From positions 434,001 to 498,000 of the forward strand of contig WIUZ02000020.1 in assembly GCA_015956445.1 (NCBI GenBank): 64,000 nt of DNA. The letters run 5' to 3'. A program made the translations under genes and the position numbers. The notes under the pieces are model-generated. The model ran no database searches, was not told where the DNA came from, and worked only from the letters and a program-made list of their open reading frames with translations. Each line of letters begins with the position of its first letter. Position 1 is the first letter of the stretch. Below are positions 1 to 64,000 of the stretch, piece after piece. The DNA is from Thelephora terrestris. Taxonomy: Eukaryota; Basidiomycota; Agaricomycetes; Thelephorales; Thelephoraceae.

Positions 1-386
1 CCTCCACTGTAGGAAAGTTTAGTACCGACGAATCGGTGAAAATTTTCAGTTGTTTCTGAGTCGCCCTCAGTACCTTCAGTACTGATGCATTTTAGCGCCT
101 AAATTCCCGCATTTCAAAATTCGCCGTCGGCATTGCCTGAACTTTTTGACCTGATGATCAATATTGACCTTTCCAACAGTGCTCATGGAACAACGATCGG
201 TGATGAATCTGCCAACTCCGTTCTGCCGCCAGGGTTCAAACGTTCATGCTTGTACCCAAATCCCCGGTGTCTGCTACCCATGATATAAAGCCCCTCGGAC
301 CGGTAGAGGGTGACTATTTCTGCCGCTCTCCCCCTCCGACCCCCCGCTGCCGCTGAAGCTCTGAGCCTCTGTGCCCCACTTCCAAG
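1..386 (+). promoter_or_regulatory. Upstream region of the first gene
   Basis: No gene is visible here. A TATA-like element (TATAAA, 284-289) lies about 100 bp before the ATG at 387, followed by a pyrimidine-rich stretch (about 315-380), which is usual for fungal promoters. Its role as promoter of the downstream gene is inferred from position only. Confidence 0.4.
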
Positions 387-1922: not shown

Positions 1923-2868
1923 ATTCGGATGGGCTCTTGCTCGGGTCCTTCCTTCGTTCTTGCCTTAATTTTATTATACAGATGATGATTTTGGCTGTAC
2001 ATCTAACGGTTGTATAATTCAACGTTGAGGGCGTATATATTAGGCGCCCGGGAAACCCGCCTGCTCTTCCAATTGAAGCCACCGCTCGCCATGCGAGAGG
2101 CAGGGGCATCAAACCCAGTACAGGGGTGGATCAACATGCCGTGAAGTTGAGCGCACGTTATTTCAATCCACCGGATGCGACCATGTCCAGTCGACATCAT
2201 GGCTTGGGCGAGGATTCCTCGGGGTTTTGTCGGTGCCGTCTGCATGCCATGGTACACAGTATGGTGGCTTGATCCATTGATCGGCTGAGGATACCACGCT
2301 GATAGAAACGTTGCCAAGTCCTGATACAGCTCCCTGGCATGTTTTCGGGCAGGTTGACCGGCTGGTATGTATATGGATCCCCCCCCATTGTTCTACCAGA
2401 ATATGGCATCCTCGTAAAATAGCGGCATGCCCGCATCGCCTGAACGTCGCCTCCTTCCGAAAGATTCCTGGCGCGTTGGGACAGTTCTCATGTCTGGAGG
2501 GGTGTGTTGCGCAGCTCACATCGTGTTCAATTACTTGGCTGGCTGCCATCTGGGACGCGGGTGTGTTGTATCGGAGGACGTGAATTTTGAAATACAAGCC
2601 CAGGCCTCAAGGCTTTAAGGTCTGTAGAAGCCAGGGCGCGCTCAAATCGTCCTCCCTCCTTCCACTCCCCTCACACGTCTCAACTGTCCTGGGTTTGACG
2701 AGATGTCGGTTGCACTGGTGAGATCGCGCGCGATATCTCAAGTCTCTCGCGGATGACATTAACTGCTCCAGTGACTTGAGCCCCAGGAAAGCCCCAAGGG
2801 CTTGTATTGAGCAGGCGCCAGAAAACCTATAATACACGAGGAGTAAGGCAGCACGGAGAAAAGCAGAT
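1923..2868. other. Intergenic, no supported gene
   Basis: This stretch lies between two convergent genes. Reading frames on the minus strand (about 2,003-2,597) are open for up to 144 codons, but they overlap in three frames, lack recognisable motifs and offer no coherent exon chain. I see only 3' flanks here. Confidence 0.4.
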
Positions 2869-5800
2869 TTACATGAAATCTTCAGCTCGCATCCTTTTAC
2901 CGAGTCTACCCGCCTCCTCAGTCTTCCCCTTCGGCAGTTCAGATGGAGTATCGACGCTCATCTTCTGGACCACCTCGGGTACGGCCTTTTCAACCCACAT
3001 ATCATCACCATCGTCATCAGCCTCTCCCTGCCTCTTTTCGTCCTTCCCGGAATCCTTACCTTTTGGCCTCCGCTTCTTCTTTCTCTCCCTCTCCCTGTCC
3101 TTGTCCTTACTTTTCAAAACCACAGGGCTATCTTCACCTTCTTCCGCATCGAAGGATACCAGGGCCTTCCCACTCTTCCGTCTTTCTTTGTCTTTCTTCC
3201 GCTTCTTTGTAGGAGGGTTATCCTCAGGGGCACGTTCAGTCCGGGGCACGAATTTGGGTTTGAACGTTGCGAGATCTATAGGTCCTTCGTCGACATCCAT
3301 CTGAACGTCTTTCTTCGAAGGCGGTGCGGGAGCGCCGGATGGGGCTGGGACGGAAGCTTCTCGCAGATCGGTGTCCTCAACCTTGGCCTCATCTTCGTCG
3401 TCCGAGTCTTCTTCGTCGCTCGCGAAGATGGCCTTGAAAATACTCCGCTCGGGTCTTTGATAAGTGAGGACGTCGGCACCCTGTGTCTCGTCCTCCCCGA
3501 GTCCAACGTTAGCGAGATCTCTACGTTTTGGACGTTCATCTCCACCAGCACCCTGAGAAACTGCAGCAGCAGAAGGACCGCCTTCCGCGCCTGAGGCAAC
3601 CAACTCCGCTTCAGGGAAGGCGGTTTCCTGCTCCCAGTCTGCCTGGGCCTTCGAGCCCAAATTTGGATCTTCCTCCCGAGCCTCAATCTCTGGCTCCTTG
3701 ACTCCAAACCGTTTGCACAACAACTTCACGGGAACCCATACAGAGGTTTCCCTCGTCAAAATACCGTACATCCCGTGCTTTACGGCGTGTGTCTTAGCGT
3801 TTTCGGGTTCCTCTACCTTTGTCTCGGGTGGTTCCGCTTCTGGCGACGGAGCAGCTTGAGAAGGCGTGTGTAGACCTTCGATGACTGCCGGTCCATGATC
3901 CACGGCTTTCGCGGTTGTAAACCTGCCGGCCATCGCTCCAGAAAGAGGTTTAAACACCGTCGCAGCCTGAGCATACTCTCTCAGTTCATTTTGGAAGTGT
4001 TCGAGATCTTGTCCGGGGGTTTGTTTCAGTTGTAATCGATCCTCATCACTGACGACCTCAGACTGCGATTTGAGGTATGCTGTGTAGCGGGCTTGTTTGA
4101 CAGGGTCAGAGGTGAATGGTTTGAAACCCAACAGCGCAGCTTTGGCCACCGATGGGTCCAAGCGCGGGTAGACAAACTCTCCGGATGGAGGAGAGATCTC
4201 TGGAGGTGGAGGGAGTGGTGTAGCAAGGGCCGGTTCTTCAGAGCGGACTTGTGGGGGAATGAAGTTTTTCAGTCGTTCTCGATCCTTTTGTGACAGGTAA
4301 TCGAAAACAGAACGAGGTTTTGTAGGGAGGGAGGTTTCCCCTAATGCTTGGCCTCTCTGAGCCGCAGGGAACGGTAAGCTTTTTTGAGCGGTAAAGTTCA
4401 TGGTAGGGAGACTACGGACCTGCTCGATGGTGAGGTTTCCCTTGTTCCCAGGGATCGGAACGGGCGCAGCTGGCTCGTTCTCCTTGCTGTACTTATCCCA
4501 CACTCGGTGTGGATCGGGCTTCCAACCTGATGGAACATCCTCTAGGCGATACCTACTGGTATGTAAGACTCTCGGCTAGGTAGCAATAGGTACAACATGC
4601 CATTTGTCCTCGGTTACTGGTGTGTCTGCAAGTACAAACTCTTGCAGAACCGGATCCCCGTTTTTGAATCTTTGTAGAGGGGCATTCCTGGCCTATGCGC
4701 GGGATGGATGATAATGATGGTGCTCATGGGTGAGCCTGTGAGGACTGACTCACAATAGAAGCGCCCATTTGAGATTTCGAGGCACTCTTTTGAATTGAGT
4801 GGTGATAGCGGTTTTCGTCTCCGGCCTCGTATGCGGTAAGACCCCGCCGAGAGGAGGGCCCAGAGTCATAAATGTCGATATCATCCTCATCAGCGTCATT
4901 CAGAGCACCCAGACCAAAACCAGCTAGTTGAAGCGTGAACACTCATAAGACGAGAACCGTCAACACACTGACCTGATATCCGTGGTCCGGAAGGTTTAGA
5001 GTTGCGGTCGTTCCCAAGGGCAACATTTAGACTTGGACCAGTGTTGTATCCTAGACCGTGGGCGTCATCCTTGCGTGCGACAACATTAAGAGGCGTATCC
5101 GGTCGAGGGTATGTGTGCTTTTGAGCTTCCTCGTCTTCCTCGTCGGGGTCGAGCTTCAGGTCGTCAAGTGCCAATATACGTGTCGATTTGGCTTGGGCGT
5201 CTCGAAGCTTCTTCTGCTTCCATGTCAGCCGTGGCCCGATCCCCTGACCAGGGCGCCACCCCATCTTCGTTAGCAGTTTCGCGGCCGGGGACTCTTTGGG
5301 TGTTGGAAGTAGAGCCTTCTCCAGTGCCAGAGACACCGAACTACGACAGATATGAGATGAGGAATAACCAAGTATCGGTTGTGCGCACTCTTGTTCATCA
5401 TCCCCTTCGAGAGATCTGGAGGCAAGGTCACCCGCATACTTGCCTGCAATATCTACCTCTTCGTTTTGAGGCACTAGCGTTTGACTGTCACGAAGCTCCG
5501 CCTTGTCTTCCTCGTCCATAAAATCTTCCGGTCTCAACGCTTTTTGCTTGGCTCGATCCGTGCGTGATGATTTGAAGGTCGATGGTGTCCATCCTGGTCA
5601 AGAGTTGAGCACTCTGCTGCCGAGGCGCGAAATATCGCATGCCTTCTTTCGATCCTACTGTGTTAAAATATCCGGCAGAGAATCCTCCGGTGAAAGCTCC
5701 ATGCAACCGTCTCCGACCTTTTTCGTCTCGAACCTGCAATCAATCAGTAAGCCACTCTGGCGCAGAGAAGATATTTGCAAGAACACGCACTTCCTGCTTC

Positions 5801-43540: not shown

Positions 43541-43630
43541 TGTCACGAACGTGTGACATAGTATTCAAAATTGCACAGATAATTCAAGACATTGGTCTTA
43601 TTCGTCGTAATAGTACAAAAGGAATTAAAA

Positions 43631-44525
43631 CTAAACCAGGACAAACGGGTCCACGTCACAAGCACAATCCTGAGAGAACGGACAACAATGAGCGAAGTGG
43701 TAAGGATTATGTACGCTCTGAGGGCAATACGAGTAAACTCGCGTTACCGGATCCTGCCAACACTCCCTGCATCCCAACACGTCGTGAAACAAACTGTCAT
43801 GCATCTCCCGCTTCACGTCCATTAGCGCCGCGCTCACTAACGCAAACCCATAGTGGTCCTGGAGACCCGCTACCTCCACCTTCAACTTCATTCGAACCTG
43901 CCGTGACTTGTCGGAGGGACGACAACGTTGACCAGTACGAGTCATCGGACTCTTGCGACTTTTCTTCTCGGTCCTCTTCACCAACTGACGGCTCGGAACA
44001 GGACTCCAGGGAGGGGACTGAGGAAGAGGAACTCCTCGATCCTGGAGATTGCGGAGGGACGACGGGGGAGTCAGAAGTTGCGTCGGCGCAGTATGCTCCG
44101 TCGCACCAATGACCGAAGTATCGGAGGAGAGATTCCTGGAAAGGTTTCCAATGTTCCAAGGCGAAGTGAGAGAAGTCTTCGTTAAGACTGTTAACAACAA
44201 CATACATGATATCCATCCTCTTCTCCAACTTCAAGATCCTATCCTCCCTCTCTTGTTCCATCGCATCCTGCATAGGGGTGACTCCGGGAGCCCACCTTCG
44301 AGTCCGGTTGGGGTCTTCATACCCAGCCTGCTCCCAGAACTCGGCAGGAGCGTTGTGGGCGGTCAAGAAGTCCACGGCGATCTTGTTGTCACGAGCGATA
44401 TTGGCGGGGGAGTCATAAAGGTGTTGCTCCACGTCGAAGGGAGCGTCCGTCTCAAAAGACAGAGTAAGGTCAAAAGGGGTGGCGGCGGCGTTGAGAAGAG
44501 CAGCGTTGGCAGTATAGGCAGACAT
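43631..44525 (-). CDS. orfA of A-type unit I, two overlapping frames
   Basis: Unknown protein. From ATG 44,523-44,525 the first frame gives MSAYTANAALLNAAATPFDL, TAHNAPAEFWEQAGYEDPNR, a coiled-coil-like stretch (DAMEQEREDRILKLEKRMD), LNEDFSHFALEHWKPFQESL, and then a Ser/Glu-rich tail ending at 43,797. An overlapping frame, shifted by +1, stays open and encodes TRTGQRCRPSDKSRQVRMKL, then a Cys/His-rich end (LGCRECWQDPVTRVYSYC) to the stop at 43,631. In three other copies a 40-nt GT...CCAG segment could be an intron joining the frames; in this copy its acceptor reads CCGAG, so splicing may fail. No similarity to gag, capsid or known enzymes that I can name. Confidence 0.55.
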
Positions 44526-45118
44526 TTAGTGAAATGGTTTAGAGAGTAGTGGTTGGTTTGGTGGGAGTGGAAAAGAGACGATGAGGGGAACAATCATTAA
44601 TCCCCCTGACTTAAATACATCCTGACTCAAAGAAAACTGGAAAGGGAAAACAATAACCTATTATCCATTAACGTCTCAACTAGGATAAACGAACCCTCAA
44701 CCTCAATCGCGATCCCATCAAATCCAAGAAATCCCCATTGATCATGGGAAATCCCCACCAGCCTTCTATTACCACCATCGATCATGAGAAATCCCCATTG
44801 TACTCCTAATGACTCATTCGCTATTGTTCCCCTATTTCATTTCGTCATTTGTCGCTCTAAAGTCCCACTTCTCTGACTCATCTACCCTGCCCTAAACTAC
44901 GCACAGACCATGTTGATCCCTGTTTGGTTCGTTGTAGAATAATGACTCCTGTAGAGGATTTGGTATATAAGGAAGAGCGTTCGCTCCTTTCTTTTCCCCA
45001 TTCTCAATCTCTTCTGTACTCCTCTACCCAAAAACCTCAATAAACAAGTAAGCTGAGGAATTCTCCTCGTGTCTTACTCCCTTCTAACTCTTTCAAGCAG
45101 GAATTCTCCTGCTAGTGT
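44526..45118. promoter_or_regulatory. Divergent promoter of orfA and orfB, unit I
   Basis: A TATATAA box at 44,964-44,970 precedes orfB by about 150 bp, followed by a pyrimidine-rich initiator region (CTTTTCCCCATTCTCAATC). Between the two genes the motif GAAATCCCCA recurs (near 44,727, 44,750 and 44,790), within an imperfect repeat containing TTCTATTACCACCAT. The same arrangement exists in the other A-type copies. Confidence 0.5.
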
Positions 45119-45742
45119 ATGTTCAGAGCTCCTAACCCATTCCCCTCTACAAGTCCAGTTCAGCGCCCGGTCATACCCGACGCCAGAAGATCTGTCTGGG
45201 AGTATAAACTCATCAGAAGTCTTCAAGTAAACTGAACCGCCAGTTTACTTACTCACTTCCCCTACTATTGCCCCTTCGCAGCACTCGACTCCGGAGTCAC
45301 CACTCCCCCTTTCTTATTAGGAGCGGACCACCAATTCCTTTGGAATTCCGACATAACTGAAAGTGTCTTAGCGACTGTCTATTTCAGTATAAGTCCTGCC
45401 TTCTACTTCCCAAACCCCCGTATTCATCTTACCACTAACGTTCACACCCACTCCCCTGCTATTATCGTCTTGTGGTGGGAGATCCCAACTGAACTACCTT
45501 ATTCTGTTCTAGAATACCTCGTGAGCTTTGAACGCCTTAGCGATCACGACTTCGATCCATTTATTCAGCAATTAAGTCAGTTCTGCCAAGACTACCACTC
45601 CCCCTTCCACCCTTATCAATCCGAGTCACCACTCACGCTTGATATCCCTCCTCCTCTCGCCCCTACTCCTGGAACCCCCTTCAAAGTCCGCCCAGATACT
45701 CCCTACCCGACCTCTAACCCTCTAGCCTCCCCCAAACAGTAA
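45119..45742 (+). pseudogene. orfB of A-type unit I (premature stop)
   Basis: 208-codon frame, same length as the intact copy at 55,028. ATG 45,119 opens MFRAPNPFPSTSPVQRPVIP, then RRSVWEYKLIRSLQVN, where a TGA stop (near 45,233) replaces the Gln codon of the intact copy. After it the frame is open: FLLGADHQFLWNSDITESVL, VLWWEIPTELPYSVLEYLVS, QLSQFCQDYHSPFHPYQSES, ending SPKQ. Unknown function. Confidence 0.6.
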
Positions 45743-45775
45743 GCAGGCCCACAACCCTGACAGATACTCTCTTAG

Positions 45776-48340: not shown

Positions 48341-49326
48341 TGTCAGGGCCACTCTACCCCAACAACTACCAGTGCACTGAGCCGACTCCGCAGAGTACTC
48401 GCTAGTCCAACTAGCTGTGAGAGAACGATCACATCTCTATTCTTCCGGTAGGTTGTCCGAGGTCACTACAAGTCAGGTAAAAATCCTAAAGAGAAACCCA
48501 ACCTAAACCGTACTTCGTTCAGTTTAACAAGCAAGGGTTTATCCCTACAACAGGATTGATGACTCCACCAGGTGATCAACTGGACGCTCGAGGTGTTCTA
48601 ATATGAACACTGGGGTTCTATAGTTACAAGGCGCAGTTGACGCGCAGAGCGGGAGTGAGAGCAGATGGGGGAGGTCTTGGGTTCAAACAGAAAACTCTGA
48701 CTTGTCCTTAACTGCAACTGGGCTGAGAAGGGCAGAGGATTTCCTGAGGTAACAAAACTAAGGTACTACGATACAGCCACAGTTGCTACTTATACTAAAG
48801 GAGTGGCCATGACGTCAATACCCTAATATACCCTTATCAAGTCCAGAACAAAGGGAGATAAGGAGTGTGAGAACGCTAAGTAAGGGAAGTGAACAAAGGT
48901 GACGCGTGGGAGAATAAAAGACAAAGGGCCTTACTAGCGTGTGAAGGATTGCATAAAAGATAAGAAATGTCCGCATGAAACATAGGGGTAAAGATAACAC
49001 TAGTCCTAAAAGAAATAGGGACATGGGTCATGAAAGTTTGTACCTGGATCTAAACCACACCCAAGGGTCAGGTGAGCCCCATCTCGTGGCTTCTGCGATT
49101 GGCCAGAGATAGCGAGGAACTCCACACATCCCTTGTTGTCAGTAGGTGGTATGATACCAACGGACAGGCAGTAACCTGGGAGTTGCAACCGTAATCGCTT
49201 GATCAGACCCAGTCTTGATTAGGCATAGCACCTGGGAATATTGTTCTTCCTAAGTGGCACCAGGGATTATATTCTTCGGCCGCCTTTCTCGGCTCGGGCC
49301 TACTCTGCTTCCAAAGCACAACCAGA

Positions 49327-49826
49327 CACTGGGGCAGGGGCACCTGGAATTGGTGATTACATCTTGATTACATGGTGAGTTCATGTGCACTTTTCAATAA
49401 TTGTAATCGCTGATTCCAGGTTGATTACATTTCAAATGTTACCTTGACATGTAATCCCACCAATATCCACCAATTCCATTTGAAATGTTCTCAACAAATG
49501 TTTCTGGGATGCTTTTGACCTGTCAGCAAAAATGATACTGCAATGTAATCAGCATGTTCTTCAATCGTCCAAGATGTAATCTAAATGCGCTCAAAAACAT
49601 GAGATGTTTTCACAATGTACCCACTGGGCACATTCAGGAAACATTGCTTGGGAACATCTTGAGGAAATTTCAAATGGAGTTGGTGGCAATAGTTAAATTA
49701 CATGCCAAGGTAACATTTGAAATGTAATCAACCTGGAATCGGTGATTACAATCATTGAAAAGTGCACATGAACTCACCATGTAATCAAGATGTAATCACT
49801 GATTCCAGGTGCCCCTGCCCCCAGTG
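49327..49826. mobile_element. CACTGGG-ended MITE, 500 bp, long inverted repeats
   Basis: Starts CACTGGGGCAGGGGCACCTGG-like and ends with its complement (CCAGGTGCCCCTGCCCCCAG). The arms are inverted repeats of about 180 bp. It is flanked by AGA on both sides. The empty site survives in C-type copy 2 (near 59,655), where CACAACTAGATCAGATAG runs through. Non-coding; CACTA-like by ends and 3-bp duplication, but distinct in sequence from the 46.8-kb MITE. Confidence 0.85.
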
Positions 49827-50159
49827 AGATCAGATAGGGTTACCATCCGATTAGAAGCACAGTGTCCAAATGTTGATACCCTGTGCCCACGTGTGTGTTT
49901 CAGGGTCCAGGGTTGGTCATTATCATGATGTCATAAAGGGGTCGTAAAAAGGGGTTCGTGATGTCATAAAGGGGTCATCAGGGTCTTGAGACCTATTTTT
50001 AGTGCGCGCGCATTCTAGGCGTTCCGGAACGAAGTTCTTCCAAGGCCGTCCCACAGGCCGAGGTGTCAGCTTGATGTAGTAAGCCGACAATGATGGTACA
50101 GGGGCGGAAGTTGATGTGACCCGGACCAATGAGGTTCGTCGAGGTAGGTCACGTGAAGG

Positions 50160-50247
50160 ATCACCGATCTAGGCTATAAGAAGGATGTCTTCTTGGAGCC
50201 ATCCTTGATCAGCAACACCAGCAACTTCCCCATCATCTTACCACAAC
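50160..50247 (+). promoter_or_regulatory. orfC promoter
   Basis: A TATAAG-type box (CTAGGCTATAAGAAGG, about 50,169-50,184) lies about 70 bp before the ATG. It is conserved in all C-type copies, including the fragments at 56.4 and 63.1 kb. Confidence 0.45.
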
Positions 50248-51985
50248 ATGTCCTTTCCCAACAACCATACCTACAAAGTCGCCAATGGCATCTCCACTAT
50301 CTCCCGTATCGACCGTTGTGCTGCTGCTCGCAAGACCTACGCCTGTGCGGCGGGGACTCCCTATACCACTGATGACCAGGTATGGGGGAGGTCTAGAGCT
50401 TCATGTGTTTGCACTAACGCCTTCCTCTAGGTAGAGGTTACGTTCTTTCGGCGTTGATGTCAAACTAACAGCTTCTAGATCTTGGAGGTCGTCATGGAAG
50501 TGGACGCCGAACGTCTCAGGGAGACGATTCCTCATTTGATGGGGTTGACCTGGGATGATGAGCTCTGGGTCCGCACGATGATTGCCGAGAAGGTGAACTT
50601 CCAGATGAGGGGTAGGTTCGGGGAGCTGGAGCATCCGATCAAAAAGGAGCTCTGGTACACTCTGCAGAGGGGAATCTACGATCAGGATCTGTTGGAGCAC
50701 GGAGTGACTGTTCCTTGGGCCGTCCGCCATGCCACCGCTTCCACTAGTCTCTTGTGGTCGCTTGTTCGGGAAGGGGAGAGCCGGGTAGGTCCTCTGTTTG
50801 AATATTCGAGTATGACTCTTGACTAATCAAACTGCCTAGGTTGAACGATTGGAGCGCGAGGTGAAGGAGGCGAAGGCAGATGTTCTTCGTCTGTCAGTGG
50901 AGGGTCTTCAGATGAAGGAGACCTTGGCAGCCTTTCAACAGGGAACGAACGAGGCGTTGGAGGCAATGGTCGCCAACCATCAAGAGTTGATTGCCGGGTT
51001 GAAGGTTCGGGACAACAATATCAAGGGGGCGTTGGCCAGGAGGGATGAAAAGGTGCTTTCAGCCTTTGCAGGTTTATGCAATGACTGAGAGACTTCCTCT
51101 AGACTGAAGAACTCGAGAACGTGGTGGCCGTGTTGACAGCGCAGGTCGAGTCCTTGCAGGACAAGACCTGCAACTGCAAGGAGGGTCCCGTGTTGGTTGG
51201 TCAGGGGACTGCCGAGGTTCCGTTCAAGTTGGAGTACGCCGACGAGGTGGTACTCCCATCGCCTAACCCGTCGTCCTATGCAACACCTCCAATCGAGAAC
51301 TCGGTTTCCGTTCCGACTCCGGCTCCGGCTTCCACCTTGGCCGCGTCCGATAAGGAGAACTGTGGGCGCTGTGCCTTGCAGCTGATCCATCAGTTGGTGA
51401 AGATCGAGGATGAGGTCATGGAGGTTGACCGAGCCGAAGATGCTCCGAGGGTCGCCGAGGTATGTCCGGTGACTAAGGGGCAACACTGCAAACGCTCTCG
51501 ACGCCGTCCTGCCCATCGTATGACCGCATCGGCTAATCCTTACCCTCGACCAGTTGAGTCGGATGGTGACCAGTCTGGTCGAGGTGAGGAGCGAGGATTC
51601 CGATATCGGGTCCACCGTCCTTACCGACAGGTCGAGTCAGAGATCCAACTCCGCCACCAGCTTCGCCTCGCAAGACAGGATCCCACCCAGGGGTCCGATG
51701 AGGGAGACGGAGGGTCGCTTGTCGACTACGTCAATAGTGCTGCCGAGCAGTCACCCGGTGATGGAGATGTGGGACCAGGTGTTCCGCAGTTCGGTGACAT
51801 CTGGGAGGCTGATCGGGCCGCTTGAAGGCATCTCTTCTTATCGGCTTGAACTAGTCGTTCAGCTGAGTGCCGAAGACGGTGATGCCATGTTCGGGGAGGT
51901 CCTTGCAAGGAGGGGCCAGCACTACGATCTCCGGGATGGACGGTTGATGACCTTTAGGCCTGCCGTAGATAGAGTCGATTTCTGA
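50248..51985 (+). CDS. orfC of C-type unit, copy 1; coiled-coil protein
   Basis: Five exons. ATG 50,248: MSFPNNHTYKVANGIST and KTYACAAGTPYTTDDQ. A GTATGG intron precedes ILEVVMEVDAERLRETIPHL, LTWDDELWVRTMIAEKV, then LEHPIKKELWYTLQRGIYDQ. The next exon is a coiled coil (VERLEREVKEAKADVLRLSV, ALEAMVANHQELIAGLKV). A further exon has VVAVLTAQVESLQDKTCNCK, a Pro/Ser linker and CGRCALQLIHQLVKIEDEV. A GTATGT...CTAAT...CCAG intron of 94 nt (about 51,460-51,553) switches to the last frame: LSRMVTSLVEVRSEDSDIGS, ending PAVDRVDF at 51,985. No known domain; the N-terminal half could be a structural (gag-like) protein, but no capsid or zinc-knuckle motif is evident. Confidence 0.6.
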
Positions 51986-52168
51986 TGGGACGATGATAGC
52001 ACCGTATATAGCTCATTGTGGATTTGCTGGGAATAGTACACGCGTGTGTGTGTTTTGAATGATTGGTGTGAAGGATAAGGAGTGTGAAGCATTCGAACAT
52101 AAGAAATGGTAAGAAGAGTTCGAAGAAAGAGTGTGTTATAAAAGTTTAAAAATACCATGTTCCTGACA

Positions 52169-53373: not shown

Positions 53374-53478
53374 TGTCACGAACACATGACATATTGGTCA
53401 AAATTGCACAGATAGTTCAAGACATTGGTCTTATTCGCAGCAATAAAAGTACAAGGAAGACTAACAAATATTACGAAA

Positions 53479-54385
53479 CTAAACAAGAACAAATGGGTCA
53501 ACGTCGCAAGGACAGTCCTGAGGAAAAGGGCAACGATGAGCAAAGTGGTGAGGGTTGTGCACGCTCTGAGGGCAATACGAGTATACCCGAGTTACCGGAT
53601 CTTGCCAACACTCCCTACATCCCAACACATCATGAAACAAACTCTCATGCATCTCCCACTTCACGTCCGTCAACGCATCGCTCACTAACGCGAACCCATA
53701 ACGGTCCTGAAGACTTGCTACCTCCACCTTCAACTTCATCCGAACCTGACGTGACTTGTCGGAGGGACGACAACGTTGACCAGAACGAGTCATCGGATTC
53801 TTGCGGTTCTTCTTCTTCTGGGACCTCTCCACCATCTGACGAACTGGGGCAGGACTCCAGGGAGGGGATGGAGGGAGAGGAACGCCCTGATCCCGGCGGC
53901 GGCGAAGGGATGACTGGGGACTTGCAAGGGGGGTCGGTGCAATAAGCCCCTCGACATTGGTGTCCGAAATATCGGAAGAGAGACGCCTGGAAAGGTCCCC
54001 AATGTTCCAAAGCAAAATGAGAGAAATCCTCATTCAAGCTGTTCATGATGACGTACATGAGATCCACTCATTTCTCCAGCTTTGCAATCCTATCCTCCCT
54101 CTCCCTCTCCATAGCGTCCAACAAAAGAACGGCTCCAGGATGCTTAGCTTCAGGAAGAGGCCTAGAAGATCTGGTATCTTTGTACCCAGCTTGTTCCCAA
54201 AACTCGGCAGGAGCGTTGTGTGCAGTCAAGAAGTCTACCACAACCTGGTTGTCGTGGGCGATGTTGGCGGGGGTATCATAGAGGTGTTGCTCCACGTCGT
54301 AGGGAGCATCCATCTCAAAAGACGGGGTGAAATCGAAAGGAGCGGTAGCAGCATTGAGGAGTTGAGCGTTGGCGGCAAAAGTCAT
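53479..54385 (-). pseudogene. orfA of A-type unit III (one premature stop)
   Basis: ATG 54,383-54,385: MTFAANAQLLNAATAPFDFT, HNAPAEFWEQAGYKDTRSSR, AMEREREDRIAKLEK, then TGA (about 54,068) in place of an Arg codon. After that VIMNSLNEDFSHFALEHWGP and the tail to 53,645 remain open, as does the +1 frame to 53,479 (MTRSGQRCRPSDKSRQVRMK, LGCRECWQDPVTRVYSYCPQ). The 40-nt GTTCCTCTCC...GCCCCAG intron candidate is present. Confidence 0.6.
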
Positions 54386-55027
54386 AGTAAGAGAAGATGA
54401 TATCGAAAGGTGAGAGTTGTCAAGTGTTGGTGGGAGTGGAAAAGAGGCGATGGAGAGGAAGACTCATAATCTCTCTGGATTATATACGTCCAAGTCAATA
54501 AGACGCCACAAAAGGGAGACAATAAAGTCATCACTCATTAAAGTCCCAATTAGGATAAACAAACCCTCAACCCCAATCGCGATCCCATCAAATCCTGAGA
54601 AATCCCCACCATGCTTCTATTGCCACCATTGATCCAGAGAAATCCCCATCGATCACGAGAAATCCCCAACACACTTCTATTACTACTGTAAAACACGAGA
54701 ACTCCCCTAATGCTTCCATCAGCTCGCTTTTCTTATTGATTCCGCATTAGAAATTATCACTCGTCGTCCTAAGTTCCCCTGACCTGACTCATTCAACCTA
54801 CCCTAAACTACGCACAGACCATGTTGATCCCTGTTTTGTTCATTATAGAATTATGACTCCTGTAGAGGATTGGGTATATAAGGAAGAGTGTACACTCCTT
54901 TCTTTTCCCCATTCTCAATCTCTTCTGTACTCCTCTACCCACAACTTGAATAAACAAAGTAAGCTGAGGAATTCTCCTCACGTCCTAATTTTCTGACTCA
55001 TTCTTGCAGGAATCCTCCTGCCAGTGT
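54386..55027. promoter_or_regulatory. Divergent promoter of orfA and orfB, unit III
   Basis: On the orfA side TATATA (about 54,481) lies about 100 bp from the ATG. On the orfB side GGTATATAAGGAAG lies near 54,874. Between them GAGAAATCCCCA-type motifs occur at least four times (54,597-54,690), with the spacer TTCTATTGCCACCATT. Confidence 0.5.
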
Positions 55028-55651
55028 ATGTTCAGTGCCCCCGACCCTTTCCTTTCCACTAGTCCAGTTCAGCGACCACTCGTTCCTGACGCCAGGAGAT
55101 CTATCTGGGAGTATAAACTCATCAGAAGTCTTCAGGTAAACCAAACTGCTGGTTTACTCACCCACTTCCCTTACTACCGTCCCTTTGCTGCTCTCGACAC
55201 CGGAACCACCACTCCTCCGTTCTTATTGGGCGCCGACCACCAGTTCCTTTGGAACTCTGACGTTACTGAAAGTGTCTTAGCAACGGTCTATTTCAGCATA
55301 AGCCCAGCCTTCTATTTTCCCAATCCGCGCATCCACCTTACCACTAACGTCCACACCCACTCCCCTGCTATTATCGTTCTTTGGTGGGAAATCCCAACTG
55401 AACTACCTTATTCGGTTATAGAATATCTCGTTAACTTCGAACGTCTCAGCGACCAAAACTTCGAACCTTTCGTACAGCAACTAAGTCAGTTCTGTCAAGA
55501 CTATCACTCACCCATTCACCCTTATCAAACCGAGTCACCACTTTCGCTTGATATCCCTCCTCCTCTCGTCTCCACACCCGGAACTCCGTTCAGGACTCGA
55601 CCCGACACCCCTCACCCTTCCGCTAATCCTCTAGCGCTCCCCAAACAGTAA
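55028..55651 (+). CDS. orfB of A-type unit III, intact
   Basis: 207 residues from ATG 55,028, chosen over an in-frame upstream non-ATG extension. MFSAPDPFLSTSPVQRPLVP, ARRSIWEYKLIRSLQVNQTA, PFAALDTGTTTPPFLLGADH, VLATVYFSISPAFYFPNPRI, VLWWEIPTELPYSVIEYLVN, FEPFVQQLSQFCQDYHSPIH, then a Pro-rich tail. Rich in aromatic residues, predicted mixed alpha/beta, without transmembrane segments or known catalytic motifs. I do not recognise a family. Conserved in sequence and length among three units, which argues that it was once a real protein. Confidence 0.6.
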   Translation: MFSAPDPFLSTSPVQRPLVPDARRSIWEYKLIRSLQVNQTAGLLTHFPYYRPFAALDTGTTTPPFLLGADHQFLWNSDVTESVLATVYFSISPAFYFPNPRIHLTTNVHTHSPAIIVLWWEIPTELPYSVIEYLVNFERLSDQNFEPFVQQLSQFCQDYHSPIHPYQTESPLSLDIPPPLVSTPGTPFRTRPDTPHPSANPLALPKQ

Positions 55652-55676
55652 GCAGGCCCACAACCCTGACAGTGGG

Positions 55677-56683
55677 AACGCTAAGTAAGGGAAGCGAACA
55701 AATATGACACGTGGGAAAATAAGGGACAAAGGGCCTTACTAGCGTGTGAAGGATTGCATAAAAGATAACAATAGTCCGCATGAAACATAGGGGTAAAGAT
55801 AACACTAGTCCTAAAAGAAAAGGGGCATGGGGTTATGAAAGTTCATACCTGGGGATCACACCCAAGGGTCAGGTGGAAACCTCTCATTGCTTCGTGCAAT
55901 TTTGAGCGGCTCCAAGATCTGGGACCATGCATCATCCCTTGTTGTCTGTAGGCGGTAACAGCATCACGGACTAGTGGCAACCTCAACATACGTCCGAACA
56001 TGAGGAGGTCGGGCCTAGACTCATGGGACATGAGGGATTACAGATTCGCCAGTGTTTCACGCTAACGGCTACTTCCACATTCGCTGGGCTAAACAAAAGG
56101 AGTCTAAGGCACTCCTTCTGAATAACGGCGATTCCTTCCTCGGGTTAGGAGACTATGATGTGACTGTCCACATGTGCGATCAGGGTCCAGGGTTGGTCGT
56201 TATCGTGATGTCATAAATGAGTCATCAGGGTTGAAAAAGGGGTCGTCAAGGTCATGAGACCTATTTTTAGTGCGCGCGTGTTCTAGGCATTCCGGAACGA
56301 AGTTCTTCCAAGGCCATCCCACAGGCCGAGGTGTCAGATTGATGTAGTAAGCCAACGATGATGGTACAATGGCGGAAGTTGATGTGACCCAGACCAATGA
56401 GGTTTGTTGAGGTAGGTCACGTGAAGGATCACTGATCTAGGCTATAAGAAGGACGTCTTCTTGGAGCTATCCTTGGTCAGCAACACCAGCAACTTCCCCA
56501 TCATCCTACCAAAATATCTTTCCCCAACAACCATACCTACAAAGTCGCCAACGGTATCTCCACCATTTCTCGCATCGACCGTCGTGCCGCCAACCGCAAG
56601 ACCTATGCCAATGAGGCAGGGGTTCCCTATACCACTGATGAACAGGTATGGGGTAGAGCTAGAGCTTCTTGTGTTTGTGCTAT
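55677..56683 (+). mobile_element. C-type (subtype b) unit, partial
   Basis: Continues the fragment at 53,338. 55,677-55,850 matches the C-type terminal region. 55,850-56,190 is a variant segment shared only with 62,090-62,430, which defines subtype b. 56,190-56,683 matches the orfC promoter and exon 1. The orfC start is ATA instead of ATG (about 56,514), and the copy is cut at 56,683 in the first intron, next to TGTCGGAAAA. Confidence 0.65.
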
Positions 56684-57320
56684 GTCGGAAAAATCCTCAC
56701 ATCATTACCAGGCATAATAATATGACAAATTTCCGGGTTAATTATTAAGAGAGAGTCTGATTCTTATGAGTATAATTATGCGGGCAACATCTCAGTTGGT
56801 AAAGGAAGTGATTATTTTCTTCACATAATAACAATCTCATCATATAATAACAATGGCGTTGTTTAAGTGATAACCATCACCTGGGACCGTTGCTGAAGAA
56901 AGTCAAAAATTCTTATCAGCTGTGCTGATATACTCGATGTACCTTAGATTAGATTTTGATTAGATTTGAGGAATATCACATGTTGACAATCAATGATCAC
57001 GTGCGTTGAACTTGCCACAAAGCCTTCGGAGTCTGAAAGGGCAAAGATGGCAGTTAGAAGGTCGGGTCCTCGGTTCAGAGGCGCGAGCCTCTAGGGAATC
57101 TGCGGGAAGCGAATGAACAGCAAGAGGGAAAGTCGGGATATGAACGGGAGAACGAGGCAGAAGACAACGGGAAAGCCAGAGAACGAAACTACCGATAACA
57201 AACGTCGGGAAACATGGGGAAACGTCGGGACAACAGAGTCAGAAATCGGGACACCAGCGGGACACAAGAGACCAGAGGGACGACGAGAATGAGGGCGAGA
57301 CGACAAGGGAGGACCGTAGC
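56684..57320. other. Unassigned sequence, left half of a third element or host DNA
   Basis: Begins TGTCGGAAAAATCC directly after a C-type fragment, which may be another LTR-like terminus. No ORF with a recognisable product. It contains purine-rich repeats such as GTCGGGAAAC and AAACGTCGGGACAAC near 57,205-57,235. It is interrupted at 57,320 by C-type copy 2 and resumes at 60,651. Confidence 0.35.
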
Positions 57321-60300
57321 TGTCAGGAACATGGTATTTTTAAAACTTTTTATAACACGCTCTTTCTTCGAACTCTTCTTACCATTTCTTATGTTTGAAT
57401 GCTTCACACTCCTTATCCTTCACACCAATCATTCAAAAACACACACGCGTGTACTATTCCCAGCGAACCCACAACGAGCTATACAAGTGCTATCCCAGTC
57501 CCATCAGAAATCGACTCTATCTACGGCAGGCCTAAAGGTCATCAACTGTCCATCCCGGAGATCGTAGTGCTGGCCCCTCCTCGCTAGGACCTCCCCGAAC
57601 ATGGCGTCGCCGTCTTTGGCACTCAGCTGAACGACTAGTTCAAGCTGATAGGAAGAGATGCCTTCGAGCGGACCGATCAGCCTCCCAGATGTCACCGAAC
57701 TCTGGAACACCTGGTCCCACATCTCCATCACCGGGTGACTGCTCGACAGCACTATCGACATAGTCAGCAAGTGATCCTCCGTCTCCCTCATCGGACCCCT
57801 GGGTGGGATCCTGTCTTGCGAGGCGAAGCTGGTGTCGGAGTTGGATCTCTGACTCAACCTGTCGGTAGGGACGGTGGACCCGATATCGGAATCCTCACTC
57901 CTCACCTCGACCAGATTGGTCACCATCTGACTCGACTGGTCGAGGGTAAGGATTAGCCGACGCGGTCATACGATGGGCGGGACGGCGTCGAGAGCGCTTG
58001 CAACGTTGCCCCTTAGTCACCGGACGTACCTCGGCGACTCTCAGAGCATCTTCAGCTCGGTCAACCTCCATGACCTCATCCTCGATCTTCACCAATTGAT
58101 GGATCGGCTGCAAGACGCAACGCCCACAGTTCTCCTTGTCAGAAGCGGCCAAAGTAGAAGCCGGAGCCGGAGTCGGAACGGGAACCGAGTTCTCGATCAA
58201 AGGTGTCGCATAGGACGACGGGTTAGGAGATGGGAGTACCACCTCGTCGGCGTACTCCAATTCGAACGGAACATCGGCTGTCCCCTGACCAACCAGTTTG
58301 GGACCCTCCTTACAGTTACAGGTCTTGTCCTGCAAGGACTCGACCTGCACTGTCAACACGGCCACCACGTTCTCAAGCTCTTCCGTCTAGAAGAAGTGTC
58401 AGCTTCCCTCATTTCATCTTCGAGATGAGGAAAGCTACCTTTTCATCCCTTCTGGCCAATGCCCCCTTGATGTTGTTGTCCCTAACCTTCAACCCGGCGA
58501 TCAACTCTTGATGGTTGGCGACCATTGCCTCCAACGCCTCATTCGTTCCCTGTTGGAAGGCTGCCAAGGTCTCCTTCATCTGAAGACCCTCCGCTGACAG
58601 ACGAAGAACGTCTGCCTTCACCTCTTTCACCTCACGCTCCAATCGTTCAACCTAGGCAGTCTGATTAGTCGAGAGTCATACTCGAATATTCAGACGGAAA
58701 ACCTACCCGGTTTTCCCCTTCCCGAACGAGCGACCACAAAAGGCTAGTGGAAGCGGTAGCATGACGGACGGCCCGAGGAACGGTAGCTCCGTGCTCCAAC
58801 AGGTCCTGATCGTAGATTCCCCTCTGCAGGGTGTACCAGAGCTCCTTCTTGATCGGATGCTCCAACTCTCCGAACCTACCCCTCATCTGGAAGGCCACCT
58901 TCTCCACAATTATCATACGGACCCAGAGCTCGTTGTCCCAGGTTAACCCCATCAAATGTGGGATCGTCTCTCTGAAACGTTCGGCGTCCACTTCTGTGAC
59001 GACCTCCAAGATCTAGAAGCCGTTAGTTTGACATCAACGCCAAAAGAACGTTCCTCTACCTAGAGGAAGGCGTTAGTGCAACACACGAAGCTCTAGGTCT
59101 CCCCCATACCTGATCATCCGTGGTATAGGGAGTCCCCGCCGCACAGGCGTAGGTCTTGCGAGCAGCAGCACGGCGGTCAATACGGGAGATAGTGGAGATG
59201 CCATTGGCAACTTTGTAGGTATGGTTGTTGGGGAAGGACATGTTGTGGTAAGATGATGGGGAAGTTGTTGGTGTTGCTGATCAAGGATGGCTCCAAGAAG
59301 ACGTCCTTCTTATAGCCTAGATCGGTGATCCTTCACGTGACCTACCTTGACGAACCTCATTGGTCCGGGTCACATCAACTTCCGCCCCTGTACCATCATT
59401 GTTGGCTTACTACATCAAGCTGACACCTCGGCCCGCGGGACGGCCTTGGAAGAACTTCGTTCCGGAACGCCTAGAATGCGCGCGCACTAAAAATAGGTCT
59501 CAAGACCCTGATGACCCCTTTATGACATCACGAACCCCCTTTCTACGACCCCTCATGACTTTACGATTACGATCAACCCTGGACCCTGGAACACACACGT
59601 GGGCACGGGGTATCAACATTTGGACACTGTACTTCTAATCAGATAGTAACCCTATCTGATCTAGTTGTGCTTTGGAAGCAGAGTAGGCCCGAGCCGAGAA
59701 CGGCGGCCGAAGAATATAATCCCTGGTGCCACTTAGGAAGAACGATATTCCCAGGTGCTATGCCTAATCAAGACTGGGTCTGATCAAGCGATTATGGTTG
59801 CAACTCCCAGGTTACTGCCTGTCCGTTGGTATCATACCACCTACCGACAACAAGGGATGTGTAGAGTTCCTTCGATCTCTAGCCAATCACAGAAGCTCAG
59901 AGACGGTGCTCACCTGACCGTTGGGTGTGGTCTAGATTCAGGCACGAACTTTCATGACCCATGCCCCTTTTTCTTTTAGGACTAGTGTTATCTTTACCCC
60001 TATGTTTCATGCGGACTATTGTTATCTTTTATGCAATCCTTCACACGCTAGTAAGGCCCTTTGTCCTTTATTCTCCCACGCGTCACATTTGTTCGCTTCC
60101 CTTACTTAGCGTTCTCACACTCCTTATCTCCCTTTGTTCTGGACTTGATAAGGGTATATTAGGGTATTGACGTCATGGCCACTCCTTTAGTATAAGTAGC
60201 AACTGTGGCTGTATCGTAGTACCTTAGTTTTGTTACCTCAGGAAATCCTCTGCCCTTCTCAGCCCAGTTGCAGTTAAGGCCAAGTCAGAGTTTCTTGTTT

Positions 60301-60645
60301 GATCCAAGACACCCCCATCTGCTCTCCCTCCCGCTCTGCGTGTCAACTGCGCCTCATAACTATAGAACCTCAGCGTTCACCTTATAGAATACCTCGAGCG
60401 TCCAGTCGATCAACTGGTGGAGTCATCAATCCTGTTGTAGGGATAAACCCTTGTGTGTTAAACCGAACCAAGTACGGTTTAGGTTGGGTTTCTCTTTAGG
60501 ATTTCGACCTGACTTGCAGTGACCTCGGACAACCTACCGGAAGAATAGAGACGTGAACGTTCTCTCACAAGCTAGTTGGACTAGTGAGTACTCCGCGGAG
60601 TCGGCTCAGTGCACTGGTAGTTGTTGGGGTAGAGTGGCCCTGACA
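57321..60645 (-). mobile_element. C-type LTR-like unit, copy 2, complete, 5-bp duplication
   Basis: 3,325 bp, inverted relative to copy 1: TGTCAGGAACATGG at the left, AGTGGCCCTGACA at the right. It is flanked by GTAGC at 57,316-57,320 and 60,646-60,650, a perfect 5-bp duplication. It carries a full orfC and lacks the 500-bp MITE of copy 1, giving the empty site. About 700 bp at the right end are non-coding and shared by all C-type copies. Confidence 0.85.
57504..59241 (-). CDS. orfC of C-type unit, copy 2
   Basis: Same five-exon gene as 50,248-51,985 on the opposite strand, uninterrupted. ATG 59,239-59,241: MSFPNNHTYKVANGIST. Exon 2: ILEVVTEVDAERFRETIPHL and LTWDNELWVRMIIVEKVAFQ. Coiled-coil exon: VERLEREVKEVKADVLRLSA. 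Exon 4: LTVQVESLQDKTCNCKEGP and CGRCVLQPIHQLVKIEDEVM. The last intron starts GTACGT; the final exon is LSRMVTNLVEVRSEDSDIGS to PAVDRVDF at 57,504. Changes relative to copy 1 leave every frame open and splice sites intact. Confidence 0.62.
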
Positions 60646-60650
60646 GTAGC

Positions 60651-61488: not shown

Positions 61489-63132
61489 AACTTCCGTGAC
61501 GACCTCCAAGATCTAGAAGCCGTTAGCTGGACATCAACGCCCAAAAGAACGAACCTCTACCTAGAGGAAGGCGTTAGTGCTAGCACAGAAAGCTCTAGGT
61601 CTCCCCCATACCTGGTCATCCATGATATAAGGAGTCCCCGCCGCACAGGCGTAGGTCTTGCGAGCGGCGGCACGACGGTCAATACGGGAGATGGTGGAGA
61701 TGCCGTTGGCGACTTTGTAGGTGTGGTTGTTGGGGAAAGACATGTTATGGTAAGATGATGGGGAAGTTGCTGGTGTTGCTGATCAAGGATGGCTCCAAGA
61801 AGATGTCCTTCTTATAGCCTAGATCGGTGATCCTTCACGTGACCTACCTCGACGAACCTCATTGGTCCAGGTCACATCAACTTCCGCCCCTGTACCATCA
61901 TTGTCGGCTTACTACATCAAGCTGACACCTCGGCCTGTGGGACGGCCTTGGAAGAACTTCGTTCCGGAACGCCTAGAATGCGCGCGCACTAAAAATAGGT
62001 CTCAAGACCCTGATGACCCCTTTATGACATCACGAACCCCTTTTACGACCCCTCATGACTTTACGATTACGATCAACCCTGGACCCTGATCACACACGTG
62101 GACAGTCACATCACAGTCTTCTAACCGGAGGAAGGACTCGCCGCTATTCGGAAGCATCGCTTTAGGATCCTTCTGGTTAGCCCAGCGCATGTGGAGTAGC
62201 CGTTAGCGTGAAACGCCGGCGAATCTGTAATCCCTCATGTCCCATGAGTCTAGGCCCGACCTCCTCATGTTCGGACGTACGTTGAGGTTGCCACTAGTCC
62301 GTGATGCTGTTACCGCCTACAGACAACAAGGGATGCTGCATGGTCTCTTATCTCGGAGCCGCTCGAAAATTGCACGAAGCAATGAGAGGTTTCCACCTGA
62401 CCCTTGGGTGTGATCCCCGGGTACGAACTTTCATGACCCCATGCCCCTCTTTCTTTTAGGACTAGTGTTATCTTTACCCCTATGTTTCATGCGGACATTC
62501 CTTATCTTTTATGCAATCCTTCACACGCTAGTAAGGCCCTTTGTCCTTCATTCTCCCACGCGTCATATTTGTTCGCTTCCCTTACTTAGCGTTCTCACAC
62601 TCCTTATCTCCCTTTGTTCGGACTGGATAAGGGTATATTAGGGTATATTAGGGTATTGACGTCATGGCCACTCCTTTAGTATAAGTAGCAACTGTGGCTG
62701 TATCGTAGTACTTTAGTTTTGTTACCTCAGGAAATCCTCTGCCCTTCTCAGCCCAGTTGCAGTTAAGGCCAAGTCAGAGTTTCTTGTTTGATCCAAGACA
62801 TCCCCATCTGCTCTCCCTCCCGCTCTGCGCGTCAACTGCACCTCGTAACTATAGACTCCCCGCAGTCATATTAGAATACCTCGAGCGTCCAGTCGATCAA
62901 CTGGTGGAGTCATCAATCCTGTTGTAGGGATTAACCCTTGTTTGTTAAACCGAACGAAGTACGGTTTAGGTTGGGTTTCTCTTTAGGATTTCGACCTGAC
63001 TTGCAGTGACCTCGGACAACCTACCGGAAGAATAGAGACGTGATTGTTCTCTCACAAGCTAGTCGGACTAGTGAGTACTCTGCGGAGTCGGCTCAGTGAA
63101 CTGGTAGTTGTTGGGGTAGAGTGGCCCTGACA
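61489..63132 (-). mobile_element. C-type (subtype b) unit, partial, inverted
   Basis: Begins inside orfC exon 2 (about 61,489, GTGACGACCTCCAAGATC) and runs through exon 1 (61,743-61,613, MSFPNNHTYKVANGIST), the promoter, the subtype-b segment (62,090-62,430) and the 700-bp terminal region, to a proper end at 63,132 (GTGGCCCTGACA). The opposite terminus is missing. At the right it abuts the interior of another C-type copy (GATCACCGATCTAGG), as if inserted into it. Confidence 0.65.
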
Positions 63133-63862
63133 GATCACCGATCTAGGCTATAAGAAGGATGTCTTCTTGGAGCCATCCTTGATCAGCAACACCAGCAACT
63201 TCCCCATCATCTTACCAAAATGTCTTTTCCCAACACCAACAACCATACCTACAAAGTTGCCAACGGCATCTCCACCATCTCTCGCATTGACCACCGTGCT
63301 GCCACTCGTAAGACCTATGCCACTGCGGCGGGGACTCCCTATACCACTGATGACCAGTCATGGGGGAGACCTAGAGCTTCATGTGTTTGCACTAACGCCT
63401 TCCTCTAGGTAGAGGTTACGTTCTTTTGGGCGTTGATGTCAAACTAACGGCTTCTAGATCTTGGAGATCATCACAGAGGTGGACGCAGAACGTCTCAGGG
63501 AGACGATTTCACATTTGATGGGGTTGACCTGGGATGACGAGCTTTGGGTTCGTACCATAATCGCTGAGAAGGTAGCCTTCCAGATGAGGGGTAGGTTCGG
63601 GGAGCTGGAGCATCCGATCAAGAAGGAGCTCTGGTACACCCTACAGAGGGGAATCTACAATCAGGACCTGTTGGAGCACGGAGCGACTGTTCCTAGGGCC
63701 ATCCGTCACGCCACCGCTTCCACTAGTCTCTTGTGGTCGCTCGTTCGGGAAGGGGAGAGCCGGGTAGGTTCTCTGTTTGAATATTCAAGTATGACTCTCG
63801 ACTAATCAAACTGCCTAGGTTGAACGATTGAAGCGCGAGGTGAAGGAGGTGAAGGCAGACGT
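63133..63862 (+). pseudogene. orfC fragment in a disrupted C-type copy
   Basis: Promoter (GGCTATAAGAAGG), exon 1 (ATG 63,220, MSFPNTNNHTYKVANGIST, with a two-codon insertion), intron, exon 2 (ILEIITEVDAERLRETISHL, LTWDDELWVRTIIAEKV) and the first codons of the coiled-coil exon. Cut at 63,862 by a new TGTCAGG terminus. The first intron donor reads CAGTCATG here instead of CAGGTATG, so splicing may be lost. Confidence 0.6.
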
Positions 63863-64000
63863 TGTCAGGCCGACGCGACCTCTACAGTTCAATAGCACTC
63901 TTGCTATCCAAACCTATTGCACACAAGGATCAAACACACAGTTATAACCCTGTTGCAAACCCAGGGATATCGGAAGTCTCTTCACAGACTAGATTGGAGA
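63863..64000. mobile_element. Left terminus of a further LTR-like element
   Basis: TGTCAGGCCGACGCGACC starts abruptly within orfC, after GCAGACGT, and is unrelated to the A and C units beyond the TGTCAGG end. It continues beyond the window. Confidence 0.5.

Follow-up and report, generated by a model that had tools for sequence, protein, structure and literature searches.

The 64,000-nucleotide stretch of the Thelephora terrestris genome analysed here (the window; contig WIUZ02000020.1, positions 434,001 to 498,000) carries a 3325-bp unit at positions 57321–60645 with a five-exon gene, orfC, on its minus strand. By sequence comparison with the rest of the genome of this ectomycorrhizal basidiomycete the unit is a solo long terminal repeat (LTR) of a Ty3/gypsy chromovirus, the chromovirus assignment being made from the order of the Pol domains and the presence of a chromodomain. 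The U3 region of about 2.9 kb should contain orfC as an antisense, intron-bearing gene that belongs to the retrotransposon, and we put the probability of this reading at roughly 0.93. The LTR would have its length of 3.3 kb because U3 carries the antisense gene.

57321..60645, plus strand (sense strand of gag-pol): solo LTR of a Ty3/gypsy chromovirus, 3325 bp; the unit occurs as a pair of identical direct copies around an intact gag-pol at C11:96422-109036
57316..57320, strand not applicable: left target-site duplication GTAGC, exact
60646..60650, strand not applicable: right target-site duplication GTAGC, exact
48341..52168, minus strand: further end-to-end copy of the LTR, with an insertion of about 500 bp and without a 5-bp duplication

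The full-length element and its solo LTRs

The termini of the unit, TGTCAGGAAC...GGCCCTGACA, are exact, and one complete LTR without internal sequence is bordered by GTAGC on both sides, as is typical of a solo LTR. The parent element is found at C11:96422-109036, where two direct copies of the unit, 3299 bp each and with 0 mismatches, enclose 6017 bp (6.0 kb). This pair has TG..CA ends, and ATCCT is common to the outer flanks (rows L013 and L015). The internal region encodes an intact Gag of 484 amino acids and a Pol of 1272 amino acids from the first ATG, both oriented as the sense strand of the LTRs. Pol scores above the Pfam cut-offs for RVP_2, RVT_1, RNase H, Integrase_H2C2, rve and Chromo (residues 1168–1217), in that order, and Gag for the zinc knuckle zf-CCHC, with Retrotrans_gag at 22.8 bits, under the cut-off of 24.1. 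A direct pair around a gag-pol with these domains indicates that the unit is a chromovirus LTR and that 57321–60645 is a solo LTR.

With the C11 reverse transcriptase (RT) as reference, 83 matches were obtained: eight are identical (100% over 201 amino acids), the next three have 79% identity and the remainder 40% or less. LTR sequence flanks both sides of all eight identical RT copies, and an exact pattern of LTR end plus priming site occurs at eight places in the genome, one for each RT copy (control, 0). When up to two mismatches are allowed, the 25-bp 5' end of the unit has 405 occurrences (201 on one strand and 204 on the other; 0 for the reversed pattern), and the eight full-length elements, two of which have an LTR in common, explain about 15 of these ends. 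The 405 LTR ends against eight LTR-internal junctions imply that nearly all copies are solo or fragmentary. A search of the genome with the whole unit, scoring the best 40 of 637 candidates, gave at least 74 matches. Nested or truncated copies are frequent among the matches listed, and 19 matches, including 57321–60645, span the query from 1 to 3325. At G000:C23:1030851-1049773 three LTRs and two internal regions lie in tandem, 9310 bp apart, which suggests that elements lying side by side or already joined recombined unequally through their LTRs.

For comparison, 35 distinct end-to-end copies were extracted, 57321–60645 included, representing 35 of about 405 copies and chosen as the best matches to the window. 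They comprise the two window copies and 33 from the 40 loci fetched (L013–L052); L017, L034, L038, L047 and L048 held no end-to-end copy, L014 is internal sequence, and L016, the 48341 copy fetched a second time, was dropped from the 36 rows first obtained. Loci L001–L008 repeat places already fetched, and L009–L012 were left out of the analysis. Variation was counted in 34 copies, one of the two identical C11 LTRs being omitted. With the two LTRs of the C11 element set aside, the 5-bp duplication is perfect in 29 of 33 copies, the chance expectation being about 0.03 by simple arithmetic, and is lacking in L021, L027, L031 and the 48341 copy.

A first-pass annotation of the window had described integrase-type ends with a GTAGC duplication and an intact spliced gene in a unit mobilised as a whole, and had pointed to full-length gypsy or copia elements, genome-wide copy number and 5-bp flanks as informative. 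The ends, the duplication and the gene are exactly as described and the unit is a gene-bearing product of a mobile element, namely the LTR of a gag-pol chromovirus of the Ty3/gypsy group with eight full-length copies and with borders that recur in the 35 end-to-end copies. The end-to-end match to 48341–52168 claimed there holds only around the insertion of about 500 bp, and that copy is without the duplication. The insertion itself, at about 49327–49826, resembles a miniature inverted-repeat transposable element: it ends in the inverted repeats CACTGGGG...CCCCAGTG and is flanked by AGA on either side.

The antisense gene orfC

The gene runs on the minus strand from an ATG at 59241 to a stop at 57504 and encodes 479 amino acids in five exons, separated by four GT..AG introns that are all in phase 0.

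59110..59241, minus strand: orfC exon 1
58707..59012, minus strand: orfC exon 2, kept in a second chromovirus family with 37% identity
58439..58651, minus strand: orfC exon 3, coiled coil, 33% identity to the second family
58030..58386, minus strand: orfC exon 4
57936..58029, minus strand: orfC intron 4, also open and codon-like in the exon-4 frame, with the basic segment KGQRCKRSRRRPAHRM
57504..57935, minus strand: orfC exon 5, in which 57640–57935 appears to be dual-coding with the exon-4 read-through frame

An uninterrupted reading frame is found in 34 of the 35 end-to-end copies, the exception being L025 with one stop at codon 148. All four introns start with GT and end with AG in every copy, exon lengths are constant throughout, and alignment gaps are confined to sequence outside the exons, with lengths of 54–100 bp for intron 1 and 50–52 bp for intron 3. 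Public gene models follow the same splice pattern and vary at the join of exons 1 and 2. Stops were found in two of the best 150 matches to exon 2 and in one of the best 150 to exon 5, lists that favour intact copies. A single-copy orfC outside the LTR borders was not seen among the 35 copies, the genome-wide lists being those of the best 150 places.

Sites that vary in at least two of the 34 copies are distributed over the first, second and third codon positions of exons 1–4 as 50/336, 26/336 and 199/336, and this pattern is absent from introns 1–3. The ratio of nonsynonymous to synonymous variants (N/S), normalised with the mutation spectrum of the non-coding parts of the LTR, is 0.13 for variants present in at least four copies, 0.20 for those in at least two, and 0.51 for private variants in a count that includes multi-allelic sites. 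We read this as selection during replication of the element followed by relaxation after insertion; judged from these patterns orfC is a coding gene and was under purifying selection in the replicating lineage.

A Pfam scan of the orfC product gave no family above cut-off, the matches below it being coiled-coil noise, and a sequence search of solved structures gave a single match, which was disregarded (E 0.93). The predicted structure has a mean pLDDT (predicted local distance difference test) of 45.2 and a predicted template modelling score (pTM) of 0.22, and is confident only in a coiled coil at about residues 123–240; outside it the model has low confidence and the protein is probably disordered.

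Intron 4 and two possible C-termini

Intron 4 is 94 bp long in all 35 copies. Read in the frame of exon 4, its shared variable sites fall at 6/32, 6/31 and 16/31 of the three codon positions (third against first and second, Fisher P = 0.0018). The exon-4 frame continues past the intron through the first 296 bases of exon 5, in another phase than that of the spliced gene, and the read-through gets to codon 240 or beyond in 28 of 34 copies, with an early stop in six, among them the copy at 57321–60645 itself. Compared with exons 1–4, third positions of exon 5 in the overlap are less variable (20/98 against 199/336, P = 8e-12) and second positions more variable (25/99 against 26/336, P = 1e-5), while exon 5 outside the overlap looks normal (5/44, 3/44 and 23/45). 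This is the pattern expected from coding in both frames, and 57640–57935 appears to be dual-coding. That intron 4 evolves like coding sequence implies two alternative C-termini encoded by partly overlapping frames. The second chromovirus family offers a parallel: translated with the intron retained, its gene shares 55% identity over 184 amino acids with P0076, a protein from a JGI contig, and the public model P0072 follows the spliced reading.

A homologous gene in a second chromovirus family

The three RT copies with 79% identity to that of C11 represent a second chromovirus family. Each of them (C5, C12 and C23) lies between two open frames related to exon 2 that are antisense to RT, and at C12 the LTRs are 2934 bp long, 99.93% identical over 2896 aligned bases and bordered by the duplication GTTTT. 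The exon 2 product shows 37% identity to orfC (E 4e-12) and the exon 3 product 33% (E 7e-11), and the whole public protein P0072 of this family matches P0002 with E 4e-32. The exon is present in at least 150 places (568 candidates). A homologous gene at the same place and on the same strand indicates that the LTR already carried the gene when the two families diverged, or that the gene passed from one family to the other.

Layout of the LTR and priming of reverse transcription

The boundary between U3 and R-U5 is predicted from a TATA box and a match to a putative self-primer.

57321..60224, plus strand: predicted U3, 2904 bp, containing the antisense gene
60225..60645, plus strand: predicted R-U5, 421 bp
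60191..60196, plus strand: TATAAG, putative sense promoter for the genomic RNA, 34 nt ahead of the predicted start
60225..60236, plus strand: TAGTTTTGTTAC, predicted 5' end of the genomic RNA and self-primer
59309..59314, minus strand: TATAAG upstream of the antisense gene, as GGCTATAAGAAGG in 31 of 35 copies

The longer word GTATAAGTAG around the sense TATAAG is present in 34 of 35 copies. The sequence TAGTTTTGTTAC, exact in 33 of 35 copies, is complementary to positions 3–14 of the full-length element's internal region; these 12 nt (GTAACAAAACTA) pair with LTR positions 2880–2891, 34 nt after TATAAG. For the second chromovirus family, internal positions 3–13 (ATATCAAAGAT, 11 nt) match LTR positions 2490–2500, 33 nt after TATAAG. 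The self-primer sequences thus differ between the two families yet stay complementary, which supports priming of the Tf1/sushi type, and reverse transcription may be self-primed in both.

Under the reading preferred here, the genomic RNA would start at about position 60225 and prime its own reverse transcription through the match of 11–12 nt just inside the 5' LTR, in the manner of Tf1/sushi. The U3 gene would be copied into both LTRs, the product would be inserted by the element's own integrase, and later recombination between the LTRs would delete one of them together with gag-pol, so that a single LTR with its gene is left. Since the genomic RNA contains the introns in antisense orientation, they would not be spliced out and would persist. 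By analogy to HBZ, the antisense protein of the human T-cell leukaemia virus type 1 (HTLV-1), our guess is that the orfC product acts in trans as a regulator or accessory factor of the element's own expression or replication. It is conceivable, though we consider it doubtful, that this regulator exists in two forms, differing at the C-terminus according to whether intron 4 is spliced out or kept, and that every solo LTR, having lost gag-pol but not the gene, acts as a dispersed source of it, so that its dosage rises with the number of copies and gives control of copy number; if true, such dosage control could explain why only eight full-length elements are found beside about 400 LTR ends.

Several observations weigh against the interpretation as a whole. 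The window subfamily differs by 10.4% from the C11 LTR, with another segment at about unit positions 2285–2590, and no full-length element belonging precisely to this subfamily was found. Antisense transcription, splicing, use of the TATA boxes and self-priming are all inferred from sequence, and shuffled LTRs match the self-primer equally well in 1/500 and 9/500 cases, so that each match is only modestly improbable singly. Private variants of orfC are near neutral when only sites with a single private variant are taken (N/S 0.76), and half-constrained in the count that includes multi-allelic sites (0.51). Only one private stop was observed against 6.2 or 8.9 expected in two counts, fewer than full relaxation predicts, and a strict view of copies as dead after insertion does not by itself explain this. 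Part of the shortage may be due to sampling, as private variants may often be present also in unsampled copies, or solo copies may still be useful to someone.

Alternative explanations

That the unit is a non-autonomous gene cassette, a Ginger-like DNA transposon or a captured gene, moved whole by a trans-acting integrase, is improbable. The many copies that stand alone (405 5' ends for eight LTR-internal junctions), the 29 perfect duplications in 33 copies, a gene intact in 34 of 35 copies with few private stops, and a similar arrangement of the other family of the window, whose partner was not found, are all in its favour, but identical direct pairs of the unit surround an intact gag-pol, with a self-primer match at the LTR-internal junction. 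A solo LTR is moreover without the packaged internal region and priming site needed for copying itself, and recombination over 3.3 kb of LTR homology, which the C23 tandem indicates to occur, is sufficient to produce the lone copies. The direct LTR pairs around gag-pol led us to reject a DNA transposon or stand-alone cassette as the main explanation. A cut-and-paste transposon of the Ginger kind does not fit either: the inverted match of the ends is limited to TGTCAGG/CCTGACA, and the unit is the repeat that flanks gag, RT and integrase.

Even less probable is a recent capture of a host gene into the LTR, with orfC as a passenger. The introns and the TATA-like sequence of orfC would suit it, and an orphan host gene is conceivable as no Pfam family passes, but the homologue at the same place and strand in the second family (RT 79%) makes the gene older than the split and recent capture unlikely. 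The homologous protein clusters, 71 among the 7998 scored candidates that share most words, are furthermore all from T. terrestris, and the variants shared between copies point to selection in the replicating lineage. Least probable of all is that the antisense frame is an accident of a long LTR from which no protein is made: although orfC is known from sequence alone and its structure model is poor, this is contradicted by the third-position bias of exons 1–4 with none in introns 1–3, by the constant exon lengths in 35/35 copies, by the protein similarity across families and by the splice pattern shared with public models.

Other features of the window

The other family has units at window positions 43541–45762 and 53374–55671, 2.2–2.3 kb long, with ends TGTCACGAAC...CCCTGACA and perfect 5-bp duplications GATAC and GTGGG. 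The unit carries an antisense gene and, near its 3' end, a sense open frame of 220 codons, and its exon 1 has at least 150 matching places (329 candidates). These units look like solo LTRs of another family. A gag-pol was not found between copies, and a pattern search for a self-priming junction predicted in the same way found none. Similarity between orfC and this antisense gene was not detected, the hhalign probability being 0.6% with single-sequence templates, which makes it weak as a negative.

From the two families the first-pass annotation had postulated a shared integrase acting in trans on unrelated gene-bearing units. Both families do have 5-bp duplications, and for the other family, without a gag-pol found, such an integrase may operate. 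The orfC family has its own gag-pol, and recombination between LTRs explains its solo copies, so for this family the idea of a cassette moved only in trans is not supported; some of its LTRs may nevertheless be mobilised in trans by related integrases.

Both families are represented on C59. The orfC-type copies L030 (G000:C59:681545) and L031 (G000:C59:640777) are 0.03% different, with a common left flank and different right flanks, and the other family matches at C59:672425 and 631657, with the same spacing. A segment may therefore be duplicated there at a distance of about 40.8 kb, in which case L030 and L031 would belong to one duplicated segment. In the window, truncated and inverted fragments of the 57321–60645 unit form a nested cluster of LTR pieces at 55672–56717 and 61490–63863, and low-complexity repeats of the GGGAAAC/GGGACA type at about 57040–57320 adjoin the left end of the LTR.

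Comparison with known systems and implications

The sag gene of the mouse mammary tumour virus (MMTV) is a protein-coding gene in the U3 of the LTR in sense orientation; both are U3 genes, but orfC is antisense and has four introns. HBZ, a spliced gene initiated from the 3' LTR whose product has a basic leucine zipper (bZIP) coil, is mostly encoded internally and not in U3, whereas the whole orfC gene lies in the LTR; no homology between them was seen. The LTRs of Tf1 have about one tenth of the length of 2.9–3.3 kb found here. Like the Tf1/sushi chromoviruses the present elements have a chromodomain in pol and a predicted RNA 5' end that could pair with sequence immediately internal to the 5' LTR, but they differ by the long LTRs and the gene in U3.

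The self-priming mechanism has been described (available part of PMC2864245). In the available part of PMC11963269, antisense retroviral proteins including HBZ of HTLV-1 are given a role in the viral life cycle, and all plant Ty3/gypsy Retand elements are reported to have antisense open reading frames (ORFs) between pol and the 3' LTR. Retand, Grande and RIRE2 of plants have, like orfC, a conserved antisense accessory ORF of unknown function in a gypsy element (same part of PMC11963269), but orfC lies inside the LTR, in U3, is present twice per element, is kept in solo LTRs and has a basidiomycete host. A sequence relation to the plant antisense ORFs was not found, no Pfam match being over cut-off, and the TRP28 domain (PF04195) of the Retand-type ORFs is absent among the Pfam matches of orfC up to E 1. 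What sets orfC apart from the Retand case is that it lies within the LTR, contains introns, has putative dual C-termini and persists in hundreds of solo LTRs. The bdelloid rotifer elements Juno and Vesta likewise combine accessory ORFs peculiar to each family with a small number of full-length copies and an abundance of solo LTRs, and the part of PMC5408684 available describes an extra ORF3 and does not mention a gene within the LTR. The T. terrestris genome paper treats LTR content generally and, in the part available, mentions no such gene (PMC7550596). Searches of the open-licence literature gave no earlier description of a retrotransposon LTR with an antisense gene in it.

Antisense accessory genes are known in retroviruses and some plant retrotransposons, but outside the LTR or only partly within it. 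A complete spliced gene in U3 would be copied twice per insertion and outlive the death of the element, and its antisense placement offers a straightforward explanation of how a gene replicated via RNA can keep its introns. Gene catalogues are inflated accordingly, with public T. terrestris clusters of up to 40 members for orfC and 51 for the second family under the name 'hypothetical protein'. As the U3 gene survives when the element dies, solo LTRs, which are usually deemed inert, would become a large gene family.

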